Shown: one piece after another, positions 43,036-47,431 of the stretch | How the letters are laid out: every line of letters starts with the position of its first letter | How positions within the stretch are numbered: position 1 is the first letter of the stretch | Source: Myxococcales bacterium | GTDB lineage: Bacteria; Myxococcota_A; Polyangia; Polyangiales; Polyangiaceae | Length of the DNA: 48,294 nt | Reading direction: 5' to 3' | Assembly: GCA_023248745.1 (NCBI GenBank) | Contig: JAHFDZ010000007.1 | Location: 1-48,294, forward strand | The notes under the pieces: generated by a model | What the model saw: the letters and a program-made list of their open reading frames with translations, nothing else | Told to the model about the DNA's origin: nothing | Databases searched by the model: none | Position numbers and translations under genes: made by a program

Positions 43036-44514
43036 TCACCGAGGCACGAGCACCTCAATCGACGCCGCCGCCCGCTCCGCGACCTCCCCCGTCGCGAATC
43101 GCGCCGGATCGATCCCATATAAGTCCCGAGCCCGCTCGGTAATCTTCTTCGCGCTGATGCCCTTCTTCACGCCGATCTTAAACCGCCCTCGTGGAAAGAC
43201 TTCCGCGAGCAGGCCCGCCTCGGCAATCAGCGCCTCGTCACTAACCTTCTCCGAAAATCGCATGTAAAATGCATGCTTTACCTCCGCGGACGAAACGATC
43301 GCGAAGCGCTCATCGGATGGCTCTGGCGGATTCTTCTGCACCATCGTCAACACAAAGCTTCCGTCAAGCCAATCGTGCTCTGGCAAGGAGACGCCCAAAG
43401 TTCCCACACCATGAAACAAGTCGAAAAATCGCAAACCAAGTGCACGAAGTGAAGCGCCAAACGGTGACCCTGTTTCGAAGAGCCGTGCATTGTCGGCAAG
43501 CGTCGCGTAGCGCATGTACCCAAAGCGTTCGACCAGCGACGCAGGTTCAACCGATCCATCGATGCCCGCCAGCGTTTGAGCGGCCACATGTATGTCACGC
43601 GCGAGCTCACCGAGACCCGCCACGAGACCCTCAATCCACAACGCAGTCGTGCGCGGGTGCTGCTCCACAAATGCGCGCGGCGCCACAACGACCCAAGGCG
43701 CCCAACGCGCCGCTTCGACCGTCGTGAACACAAGGTGATTGGGCCCTTCGGCTGAAGTCAAAGCCGTAAATGGTCTTGACTGAACACCAAACTCCGCATT
43801 CTTGAGCTGCGGCGTCTGACGAACCTTACTTAGCGTGAGCCCTTCGGCATCTGCAACAAAGAGCGCCAGTGCCGTCGACGCATCACCACCCGAAACAAAC
43901 ATTTTCGCTTGGTCGGCGGACCCTTCGAACAAGTTGTCGTGCTTGCCAAGCAAGAAACCTTCTCGCCCTCGCGACCACGCCGTCGCGTAGATCACCTCGA
44001 GCGCCAGCGCACGTGTGCGCTCGTAGCCCCCAACAACCGCCGCGAGCGGAACAACCGCAAAGTCGCATCCCGCCTCCTCCTGTCCGCCGCGCGCGATCTG
44101 CTTCTCGACGTCAGCGAGACCGTCCGCAATCTTTACGACAACGTTTACTCCGCGCGCCGAGAACAGACTCTGCGGCATCGCCTTGTACCCGCGATTCGCA
44201 AGAAGCACCGGAGCGGCGGCTTCCCACCCAAGTGCGGAGACTCGAACGGCGCGCTGCAATTCCACCTTTGGTTGTACTGGAGCCTTCGCGCCTCCATCGG
44301 CGTGTGACGATGACGGCGTGGGTGAGCTCGGCCTCGGCTCGGCTGAGTCACTCGGCAGAGGAACGTTCGTCGGCGTACTCGACACAATGGGCGTGGTCGC
44401 TTTTGCAACCGTTCGCGTTACGACAATGGGTTGACCGTTGCGAACGAGTGTCACCGTCGCGACGATGAGAAACAGGATCGTCAAGATGCTGCCGAAAATG
44501 GCTTCGCGTCGCAT
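43036..44514 (-). CDS. Membrane-anchored periplasmic-binding-like protein
   Basis: A 492-residue protein. A single membrane anchor near the N-terminus (AIFGSILTILFLIVATVTLV) is followed by a Pro/Ser-rich linker and, from about 90, a region resembling type 2 periplasmic binding domains such as those of NMT1/aliphatic sulfonate binding proteins (RVSALGWEAAAPVLLANRGY, VKIADGLADVEKQIARG, FAVVPLAAVVGGYERTRALALEVIYATAWSRG). The last ~80 residues (AFYMRFSEKVSDEALIAEAGLLAEVF to ASIEVLVPR) resemble a reduced OmpA-type peptidoglycan-binding fold, which is tentative. It starts right after the stop of the pseudo-trypsin gene with no gap. No transporter genes are nearby. Confidence 0.72.
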   Translation of the reverse strand: MRREAIFGSILTILFLIVATVTLVRNGQPIVVTRTVAKATTPIVSSTPTNVPLPSDSAEPRPSSPTPSSSHADGGAKAPVQPKVELQRAVRVSALGWEAAAPVLLANRGYKAMPQSLFSARGVNVVVKIADGLADVEKQIARGGQEEAGCDFAVVPLAAVVGGYERTRALALEVIYATAWSRGREGFLLGKHDNLFEGSADQAKMFVSGGDASTALALFVADAEGLTLSKVRQTPQLKNAEFGVQSRPFTALTSAEGPNHLVFTTVEAARWAPWVVVAPRAFVEQHPRTTALWIEGLVAGLGELARDIHVAAQTLAGIDGSVEPASLVERFGYMRYATLADNARLFETGSPFGASLRALGLRFFDLFHGVGTLGVSLPEHDWLDGSFVLTMVQKNPPEPSDERFAIVSSAEVKHAFYMRFSEKVSDEALIAEAGLLAEVFPRGRFKIGVKKGISAKKITERARDLYGIDPARFATGEVAERAAASIEVLVPR

Positions 44515-45738
44515 CTAGGGCCATCTCCGCTTTACGTCCGAAAAGTGCAGAAGCTCCCGAACGTCCGCTGCGTTGACCACTTCGACAAAGTCGCCCTGCT
44601 TCTCGCGCGTGCTCACTGCGCCAAGTAACTCGCCCCGACCATCGACCAAGAAGCCGCCGCTCGCAGAAAGTAAGCTCGACACACCCTCATCAACTTTCGC
44701 AACAACACGTTCGTCAACTAACTGCACCATCGCCTCAAACCACAAAGGACTCTTCGTATTCGTTGGCACGAGATAGGCGACGCTAAGCGCCGTCTTCGTA
44801 ATTGCCTCGGGACTCAGCTTGAGCGGCTGAGCACCAAGCGAGTCGGCACGCAAAAGCGCAACTCCGCCACCGTCGCGTGTGCCCAGCCATGCAACGTTAC
44901 GTACAACTTCACCACGCGCTTCGAGCTGCACATCCTCAGCACCTTCGAAACCCACATCCGTCGCAATCCACAAACCACTGCTGTCCACAAGCACTGCACT
45001 TGCGGCGCGCGTTCGCGGCCCCTTGCGCACAAGAACGCGGCCAAGCGAAACGCTTGCGAGCTTCGACGCTTCATCGAGCGACTTCTTTGGTGCGCGCGCA
45101 GGCGCCGCTACCTTCTTGCCTCCATCGAACTTGCCCGCTTCAGGCTTCACGTCTTCCGCATCTTCCGCCACGTTGCCGGCGTCGACTGCACTAACCGAAG
45201 TTTCGGCAACACTTGCGTCCACCACAGGCGCGGACGCGTCGACACTTCTTTCGTCAACCGTTGGTACTATCGGCTCTACCGGCGGAACTTCAACGAGGCG
45301 GACGCCGGCAAACGTAAAAAACGGCTTGGCCGCTGAAACGTAACCGAGATCATACAATTTCTCGCCTTCAAGCCGCAGCGAACGTCTCGTAAACGAGGCC
45401 CCGCCCACTAGAAACAGCGACGCAACAGCAACCGAGAACAACGCAAAGAGCTCTGCGGTCACACCTGCGCGCGGCACCTGCAATCGACGCAGCAAACCTT
45501 CGAGCAGCAAGAACGGCAACCCAAGCGCGACGACAAAGCCGCCGATTGCGTGCAGCGCGATCCACGGAGCAACTCGCCCCATCATCGACATGACGACGCC
45601 AAACGTGATGCCGCTGCCGACGAAACTCGCAACCCACACGAATACCAAATAGGCAGCGCGCCCCCCACCCAGCCGCTCCCCAGGAGGAAGCTGCCGCATA
45701 GGACGCGCGCTATCGGACGGTGGTGTTGGAGTCGTCAC
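44515..45738 (-). CDS. Multi-pass membrane protein with degenerate trypsin-like domain
   Basis: A 407-residue protein from GTG 45738. Residues about 29-115 contain three hydrophobic segments (AYLVFVWVASFVGSGITFGVV, ALHAIGGFVVALGLPFLLL, LFALFSVAVASLFLVGG). A long Asp/Val/Ala-rich linker follows. Residues about 225-400 have the strand order of an HtrA-like trypsin fold (SLGRVLVRKG, SAVLVDSSGLWIATDVGF, GGVALLRADSLG, ASGGFLVDGRGELLGAVS). The catalytic His and Asp positions are not conserved (TDVGF and GGVALL); only the Ser in SASGGF remains. It is therefore probably not a protease but a binding domain. It overlaps the PilZ gene by GTGA. Confidence 0.75.
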   Translation of the reverse strand: MTTPTPPSDSARPMRQLPPGERLGGGRAAYLVFVWVASFVGSGITFGVVMSMMGRVAPWIALHAIGGFVVALGLPFLLLEGLLRRLQVPRAGVTAELFALFSVAVASLFLVGGASFTRRSLRLEGEKLYDLGYVSAAKPFFTFAGVRLVEVPPVEPIVPTVDERSVDASAPVVDASVAETSVSAVDAGNVAEDAEDVKPEAGKFDGGKKVAAPARAPKKSLDEASKLASVSLGRVLVRKGPRTRAASAVLVDSSGLWIATDVGFEGAEDVQLEARGEVVRNVAWLGTRDGGGVALLRADSLGAQPLKLSPEAITKTALSVAYLVPTNTKSPLWFEAMVQLVDERVVAKVDEGVSSLLSASGGFLVDGRGELLGAVSTREKQGDFVEVVNAADVRELLHFSDVKRRWP

Positions 45739-47336
45739 TCGTTCGCGTGCTTCGCCTTGTGGTGCTTCTTTCCCTTCTTGGCGGCTTTCTTCTCGCTCTT
45801 GCTCGTGGCGAGTACGAGCTCGAGCTTATCGCCGCGCGCTCGTACCTGATAGTTCGGTACGCCATCCTTGAAGGTCACCGCAAGTTCGGCCCCCTTCGCA
45901 TCATTGGTAACTTTGATTGCCGCAATTCGCGAATCGCGCTGTGCGAGCGCGCTTGCCGCTTCCGTCGACTTGCGACCCGGAATGTGCACCACAAACCCCG
46001 TGGGTTGTTGCGCGCCCTGGATGCTGGAGATAGGCCCGTCCATTTTGATCGATAGCAGGTTGCCCTTTTTGACCGGACCATTGCTGAACGGCGTGACCTT
46101 GGATCCTTTGGCGTGCGGCGCTTCATTATCTGACGCCAATCCGCCTGAACTCCCGCTGATACCAACAGCTGGCATCATAACCGGTGGTGGCTGCGCATCC
46201 GCAAGCGCGGCTCGGCTCTGCGCTTCGATTTGCTCGACGCCTTTTTCGATTTCCGCGGCCACGATCTGACTTACCGGCGTCTCATCCTTCGGTTTCGCAA
46301 AAGCGAACGATGTCATCATGATGCCAATCGCAACCGCTCCACCGACCGCAATCTTCTTGCGATGCGTACGAAGAGAGCCAACCCATCCCGGATCGACTTC
46401 GTCTGTCGCCACGGCGCTCTCGCCTCTCACAACACGTCGACCGGCAGTCTGAAGCACTCCGTTGGGCGCAGGTGATGTTTGACGTCGCGGCATGTCTTGT
46501 TCCTTGCGATCACGGTTTGCTTTGCGGTCGCTCCACATGAGCTTCGCGGTTGTTGCCACCCGCTTTGAGAGTGATTCAAATTTGTCGTGCGCTGCTGAGA
46601 ACGCACGCGCGACTGGACTTCGCAGTCCTTTCACGTCGATGTCGTCGTCGTCTTGTGGCTTGCTTTCAGGCTTTTCGTCGTTGGTCAATCCCATTGACGA
46701 ACGATCCGGATCAGCCATCGAAACAGAGTCGGCGTAGCGCAAGCGCACCACGAGCTGGGGTACTTGCGAGCCTGAATCGACCTCGACTTGTACGGTATCG
46801 ATACGCGCCGCTCTTCGCTTTCCGGAGTCGACATCTTCAAGGTCAAGACTCTTACCTACTTGCAAAAATCCCAACTCACTGCCGACAACAACGTCGTCGT
46901 CCTTCGCGTCGCGAATGCGCGCGCGCATCGGGGCACTCAAACCTCCGATGTGCAATCGCACCTTTGACCCAATGAGCGCGACCGGCTCTGCTGACTCGTC
47001 GCCGGCCCGATCAAGACCCAAAAGGCCTCGAAGCGTCGTGACACTCTCCGGTTCGAGATCAGCAAAACGAATGCCGAACTCACCGCCTTTGCCACTCTGA
47101 TTGATCCACACCACTTCGCCGGAAGCGAGAATCGGCTCCCCAGCGCCCACGTCAAATCTGCACGTGAGCGGTTGGCCCAATTCGGGCAGGTACGCCGTTC
47201 GCAACAACATTCCTTCTTCAGACACGTTCACCGCTTGCGCTTCGAATCCGGGCCCCATGGCCCCGCCGACTTCTACGAGTGCTTCGAAGGGAATGCGAAT
47301 CGCGCCTGGTGCACGCCGCTCAATCTCTGTGCTCAT
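45735..47336 (-). CDS. PilZ-like protein with one membrane segment and periplasmic AMIN-like domain
   Basis: From ATG 47336 the protein has 533 residues; GGAGG at 47343-47347 fixes this start. Residues 1 to about 105 form a PilZ domain with degenerate c-di-GMP motifs: the RxxxR region reads ERRAPGAIR and DxSxxG reads NVSEEG (37-42). Residues about 118-205 look like a second PilZ/YcgR-N-type barrel. An Asp-rich linker and a basic stretch precede a membrane segment (328-347). The periplasmic part ends in an AMIN-like domain (about 425-511: LLSIKMDGPISSIQGAQ, GDKLELVLAT), the module found in PilQ and amidases, then a Lys-rich tail. It likely joins cytoplasmic signalling to the cell wall or type IV pilus machinery. 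It is first in a three-gene unit. Confidence 0.8.
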   Translation of the reverse strand: MSTEIERRAPGAIRIPFEALVEVGGAMGPGFEAQAVNVSEEGMLLRTAYLPELGQPLTCRFDVGAGEPILASGEVVWINQSGKGGEFGIRFADLEPESVTTLRGLLGLDRAGDESAEPVALIGSKVRLHIGGLSAPMRARIRDAKDDDVVVGSELGFLQVGKSLDLEDVDSGKRRAARIDTVQVEVDSGSQVPQLVVRLRYADSVSMADPDRSSMGLTNDEKPESKPQDDDDIDVKGLRSPVARAFSAAHDKFESLSKRVATTAKLMWSDRKANRDRKEQDMPRRQTSPAPNGVLQTAGRRVVRGESAVATDEVDPGWVGSLRTHRKKIAVGGAVAIGIMMTSFAFAKPKDETPVSQIVAAEIEKGVEQIEAQSRAALADAQPPPVMMPAVGISGSSGGLASDNEAPHAKGSKVTPFSNGPVKKGNLLSIKMDGPISSIQGAQQPTGFVVHIPGRKSTEAASALAQRDSRIAAIKVTNDAKGAELAVTFKDGVPNYQVRARGDKLELVLATSKSEKKAAKKGKKHHKAKHANE

Positions 47337-47342
47337 GACGAC

Positions 47343-47347
47343 CTCCG
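47343..47347 (-). promoter_or_regulatory. Ribosome binding site of the PilZ-AMIN gene
   Basis: GGAGG on the minus strand lies six bases before the ATG at 47336. The longer frame starting at 47351 would contain this site within its coding sequence, so the shorter start is preferred. Confidence 0.65.
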
Positions 47348-47431
47348 TCACCGCGCAACGCGCGCGGGGCTCTCATTCGCGGATAGAGAATCGCGACGAG
47401 CCGGGCCAAGTTTTTTCGGCCCAAGAGCCCA

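Follow-up and report, generated by a model that had tools for sequence, protein, structure and literature searches.

Can a single membrane protein connect cyclic di-GMP (c-di-GMP) signalling in the cytoplasm to the bacterial cell wall? The question is raised by a gene in the window, i.e., the whole 48,294-nucleotide stretch analysed here (contig JAHFDZ010000007.1 of the Myxococcales bacterium assembly GCA_023248745.1, order Polyangiales). The original prediction, made from the letters alone, had read the product of this gene as a double cytoplasmic PilZ-type region with degenerate c-di-GMP motifs, a single membrane helix and an AMIN-like domain in the periplasm, an arrangement that would directly tie intracellular signalling to peptidoglycan or to the PilQ secretin region and that was not known as a described system. 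This last point holds, as the evidence supports a PilZ domain in the cytoplasm, a transmembrane helix and an AMIN-like domain in the periplasm within one protein, and no prior description of this combination was found in the open-access literature searched. We read the protein, with a probability of about one half, as a bitopic inner-membrane receptor or adaptor for c-di-GMP, anchored through its AMIN-like domain to septal or polar peptidoglycan.

An intact core gene of the order

The open reading frame (ORF) on the minus strand is uninterrupted from the ATG at 47336 to the stop at 45735, in exact agreement with the predicted limits, and encodes 533 amino acids (aa). A GTG at 47351 was rejected as an alternative start, because a GGAGG sequence lies 5 nt upstream of the ATG. 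The whole protein found a match in 137 of the 144 genomes of the order, and its AMIN-like domain in 133 of them (103 of the 106 good ones), with one copy per genome except in one fragmented assembly; no such domain was detected in about 240 other sampled genomes of the phylum. The gene is, thus, a core gene of the order. Comparison with a relative of the same genus gave a dN/dS of 0.076 for the whole protein and of 0.036 for the AMIN-like part, the lowest value, which corresponds to strong purifying selection. Orthologs across the order and the low dN/dS show that the reading frame is real and that its architecture is far beyond chance. In addition to the frame, its single copy throughout the order and the selection acting on it, computation establishes the PilZ domain, the helix with its orientation, and the retention of the gene in genomes devoid of PilQ and PilM.

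A PilZ domain on the cytoplasmic side of one helix

The search with the Pfam PilZ model (PF07238) matched the N-terminal region with 51.3 bits against a cut-off of 22.5 (Table 1), and the same model matched all 51 homologs examined. Comparison of this region with the 11 other PilZ domains of its own genome gave 98.4% in hhalign, and a further match, below its cut-off, was obtained with the Myxococcus paralog domain TIGR02266. The second c-di-GMP motif, NVSEEG, had been regarded as degenerate, which was not borne out, as it fits the [D/N]xSxxG consensus that is retained in 46 of 54 homologs. The real departure lies in the arginine motif, where the relatives carry RR-x(2-6)-R in place of RxxxR at its canonical spacing, with R7, R8, R14 and R46 being nearly invariant. 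This departure makes canonical c-di-GMP binding less assured, but leaves membership in the PilZ fold unaffected. GGDEF proteins were encoded in all eight genomes tested (from 5 to 16 per genome).

The prediction of one membrane helix was upheld by hydropathy and by the charges of its flanks. The focal protein contains a single strong hydrophobic segment (KD19 = 1.98). Each of the 51 long homologs has a segment at this place, at about 60% of the chain, and it is almost always the most hydrophobic one. The mean net charge was +3.1 on its N-terminal side and +0.1 on its C-terminal side, with 44 of the 51 homologs in agreement. These flanks obey the positive-inside rule and, therefore, the PilZ domain is predicted inside and the C-terminus outside, the orientation that the function of a PilZ domain requires. 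By the same measure, no comparable hydrophobic segment was seen in the genome's other PilZ proteins.

A probable divergent AMIN domain in the periplasm

The nature of the C-terminal domain was approached through family models, profile comparison and structure prediction. The Pfam AMIN model (PF11741) was above its cut-off in none of the 51 C-terminal domains, so the search with this hidden Markov model alone would have come out negative, and scans of the domain against Pfam and NCBIfam returned chance hits only. When a profile of the 51 domains was compared with all PDB sequences, the top match was the PilQ protein of M. xanthus (E = 0.07). Against AMIN profiles of the order, hhalign gave a score of 28.6 over 86 columns, with a moderate probability of 48%, whereas 200 column-shuffled versions reached a mean of 10.3 and a maximum of 17.5. 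For comparison, the score between two accepted AMIN subfamilies is 15.7, and the AMIN domain of PilQ scores 40–42 with both, so that the value of 28.6 falls inside the range (15.7–41.7) found between accepted AMIN subfamilies.

The structure model of the domain had a predicted local distance difference test score (pLDDT) of about 80 across this region. Only three of the 50 best structural matches of the model aligned over more than 80 residues, all of them AMIN proteins and all with Z below 8: PilQ of M. xanthus (Z 7.4, 88 residues), AmiC (Z 6.2, 89 residues) and PilQ of N. meningitidis (Z 5.0, 83 residues). Foldseek alone yielded no significant match for this model (best E 0.37), with PilQ B2 in second place.

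It could be argued that this is some other small alpha/beta domain, in which case the protein would be a PilZ receptor with a different periplasmic output, as in Alg44 with its membrane-fusion module. The failure of PF11741 agrees with this idea, as does the fact that the folds of RNA polymerase subunit L and ArgR reach equally high Z; however, these and the other top matches cover only 49–69 residues, and the score against AMIN profiles lies far above the shuffled copies. We consider such an alternative quite improbable. Taken together, the three lines of evidence, each of them moderate, indicate that the C-terminal domain is very probably a divergent AMIN domain, a fold that profiles and model both favour. 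The predicted AMIN-like domain stands on profile and fold comparison with PilQ and AmiC, although not on the Pfam AMIN model itself, and the AMIN repertoire of the order exceeds what that model detects.

Retention in genomes without PilQ

If the protein were an accessory of the type IV pilus, its AMIN-like domain would dock on PilQ or share its polar wall site, and the PilZ domain would relay c-di-GMP to the pilus machine. The C-terminal domain is indeed closest to the AMIN domain of PilQ, and in M. xanthus these domains are required for PilQ to be positioned at the poles (PMC10653833). By the curated cut-offs used to score the presence of PilQ and PilM, PilQ was found in 130 of the 144 genomes of the order, including the source genome, where it adjoins PilO- and PilP-like genes. 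However, five near-complete genomes (G119, G125, G135, G001 and G026) lack both PilQ and PilM over these cut-offs and keep an intact ortholog with its AMIN-like domain. Three of them (G119, G125 and G135) are large myxobacteria-like genomes of one genus, assembled as single contigs of 12–14 Mb, in which the type IVa pilus has apparently been lost. Moreover, no pilus genes were found beside the focal gene in about 50 loci. A component of the type IVa pilus would be expected to be encoded with the pilus genes and lost with them, and the focal gene shows neither.

It follows from these five genomes that the protein does not depend, in general, on the PilQ secretin. This weakens the direct tie to the PilQ region contemplated in the original prediction and makes a role as a pilus accessory unlikely, even if the protein may act with pili too where these exist. 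A PilT-family ATPase is still encoded in four of the five genomes, and there may be a link to PilT independent of PilQ. Strong selection can thus keep an AMIN-like domain in place even where PilQ has been lost.

A second cytoplasmic domain and a conserved linker motif

Between the PilZ domain and the helix, a beta-rich conserved domain (domain 2) had been taken as a second PilZ copy, but only one PilZ domain could be demonstrated. Its similarity to PilZ scored 12.4 and 14.6 in hhalign, within the null obtained by shuffling (maximum 16), and no family of Pfam or NCBIfam covered it. The AlphaFold model of aa 1–215, built on two sequences, had a pLDDT of 36, too poor for judging the fold of this domain, which may still be related to PilZ at the fold level.

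Beyond the host order, domain 2 was also found in two more genomes of its class. At locus L116 (4500–6000), from the same class but another order, it occurs with a transmembrane segment and a periplasmic domain without any PilZ (E = 6.7e-9 for domain 2), and the architecture may have evolved from a protein of this kind. The L116 protein was dropped as independent support for the AMIN assignment, as its C-terminus scores no better than shuffled copies against AMIN profiles. At locus L115 (1–1300), also from this class, a PilZ-like N-terminus is combined with domain 2 and a hydrophobic stretch that has an acidic end, with no AMIN-like domain in the same frame. In addition, some genomes encode a short paralog consisting of domain 2 alone, in frames of around 170–230 codons (loci L117, L118 and L119).

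The cytoplasmic linker that follows domain 2 carries a conserved linear motif with the consensus RRxT-[A/S]-P-x-P-GGGL...GR-x-VVR. Of 51 homologs, 38 had the RRx[ST] core in this linker, compared with a mean of 9.9 and a maximum of 17 in shuffled sequences, and the RRxT[A/S]PxP motif may be a phosphorylation site for Ser/Thr kinases or a docking site. This opens another explanation, in which the PilZ domain does not bind c-di-GMP and serves as a protein–protein scaffold by which a partner is held at the wall, under regulation by Ser/Thr phosphorylation at RRxT. PilZ of P. aeruginosa is a scaffold of this type, and both the strong conservation of the RRxT motif and the variable spacing of the arginines fit the idea. 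By contrast, the retained [D/N]xSxxG motif and the nearly invariant arginines are what would be expected if the ligand contacts had been kept. We regard the scaffold as a possible but doubtful explanation.

Proposed function

The reading as a c-di-GMP adaptor is built on known wall and membrane systems. By binding peptidoglycan at the septum and poles, the AMIN domains of PilQ position the pilus machine there, and the AMIN domain of AmiC likewise binds septal peptidoglycan (PMC10653833); the single-pass inner-membrane protein FliO has acquired an AMIN domain as an envelope anchor (PMC12403147); and a PilZ receptor with a periplasmic module is known in Alg44 (PMC12564702). These precedents, taken together, point to a membrane adaptor, and the binding of PilQ and AmiC to septal or polar peptidoglycan makes a tie between our protein and peptidoglycan plausible by analogy.

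In the mechanism that we propose, the PilZ domain would sense c-di-GMP in the cytoplasm, while the AMIN-like domain, on a flexible Ala/Pro-rich tether of about 60 residues, would bind peptidoglycan, most likely of the denuded septal or polar kind recognised by the AMIN domains of PilQ and AmiC. Bound in this way, the protein would sit at the septum and poles, where the binding of c-di-GMP would switch what is recruited by the cytoplasmic part (PilZ, domain 2 and the RRxT motif), or the other way round. We infer here the binding of c-di-GMP and of peptidoglycan, the septal or polar location, and the direction of signalling. The role would concern the envelope of this order in general and would not be limited to the secretin of the type IV pilus. 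More tentatively, the protein could represent an order-wide, possibly essential landmark through which c-di-GMP directly controls assembly at septal or polar peptidoglycan, with recognition of the wall, and not polysaccharide export or the flagellar motor, as its output or anchor.

Several observations weigh against the adaptor. On the cytoplasmic side, the serine of the second motif is missing in 8 of 54 homologs, and the non-canonical and variable spacing of RxxxR may mean that c-di-GMP binding has been lost. On the periplasmic side, the Pfam AMIN model matches none of the domains, the PDB profile match to PilQ is below normal significance, and the model of the domain was built on two sequences, with Z values under 8 that can reflect a common arrangement. 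Finally, no consistent operon partner was found, so that the neighbourhood indicates no process. The gene offers a single, near-universal object for testing whether c-di-GMP is directly connected with the cell wall, and does so for a large order of bacteria in which almost nothing is known of c-di-GMP outputs.

Features of the locus

Table 1. Features of the gene and its product, with positions in the window.
Feature	Residues (aa)	Positions	Strand	Basis or remark
Coding sequence	533 aa	45735..47336	-	PilZ, unassigned domain, linker, transmembrane helix, Pro/Ala-rich periplasmic linker, AMIN-like domain, basic tail
Shine-Dalgarno GGAGG, 5 nt ahead of ATG 47336		47342..47346	-	read directly in the sequence
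Arginine motif RR-x5-R, replacing canonical RxxxR	7-14	47295..47318	-	spacing varies among relatives
PilZ domain, cytoplasmic	14-106	47019..47297	-	Pfam PF07238, E=1.6e-13
Second c-di-GMP motif NVSEEG	37-42	47211..47228	-	conforms to [D/N]xSxxG
Beta-rich conserved cytoplasmic domain (domain 2), no assigned family	118-206	46719..46985	-	conservation in homologs
Conserved linear motif RRQTSPAPNGVLQTAGRRVVR, cytoplasmic linker between domain 2 and helix	284-304	46425..46487	-	RRx[ST] conservation
Single transmembrane helix IAVGGAVAIGIMMTSFAFA	329-347	46296..46352	-	hydropathy in 51 homologs, flank charges
Ala/Pro-rich periplasmic linker	348-410	46107..46295	-	fast-evolving
AMIN-like periplasmic domain	411-513	45798..46106	-	profile and fold comparison
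Lys/His-rich C-terminal tail	514-533	45738..45797	-	poorly conserved

The next ORF (44515-45738), which has a 4-bp overlap with the focal stop, appears to encode a membrane-anchored, trypsin-like protein (Trypsin_2, E = 0.03), apparently without the catalytic His. Neither this ORF nor the following one (43036-44514) is found at this place in a genus relative (locus L034), where tsaD follows directly. In around one third of the family, tsaD is a direct neighbour of the focal gene; other members have a DegP-like protease or histidine kinases encoded nearby.

Comparison with known systems

No described protein combining PilZ and AMIN domains was found in the open-access literature searched, in which no paper names both domains and the only whole-word hit concerns aerotaxis. 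The 24 PilZ proteins of M. xanthus are described as consisting of PilZ only or as carrying signalling, DnaK/DnaJ chaperone or acetyltransferase domains (PMC8316039). The PilZ proteins of M. xanthus (PlpA, PixA, PixB, Pkn1) share with ours the PilZ domain and the phylum, but none is described with an AMIN domain (PMC8316039), and the C-terminal domain of our protein was not detected in the other sampled genomes of the phylum. AmiC, the E. coli amidase, resembles it in the AMIN fold (Z 6.2 over 89 residues), but is a soluble periplasmic enzyme, whereas the focal protein has no amidase domain. The AMIN domains of PilQ from M. xanthus and P. aeruginosa are the nearest relatives of the C-terminal domain in profile and fold; however, PilQ is an outer-membrane secretin with several such domains, and ours is an inner-membrane protein with a single terminal one. 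FliO with AMIN, from C. jejuni and some Myxococcota, likewise crosses the inner membrane once and combines an AMIN domain in the periplasm with a beta domain in the cytoplasm (PMC12403147), although its AMIN domain is N-terminal, in the opposite orientation, and its cytoplasmic part is not PilZ.

Alg44 of P. aeruginosa shows the same layout of PilZ, membrane segment and periplasmic domain, and it has a single transmembrane helix. It differs in that its periplasmic module is membrane-fusion-like and its gene lies among alginate genes, whereas the focal protein has an AMIN-like module, no adjoining polysaccharide genes and a different RxxxR spacing. In conclusion, the protein is best read, by analogy, as a new combination of domains that would work in the manner of Alg44, of PilQ with its AMIN domains or of FliO with AMIN.
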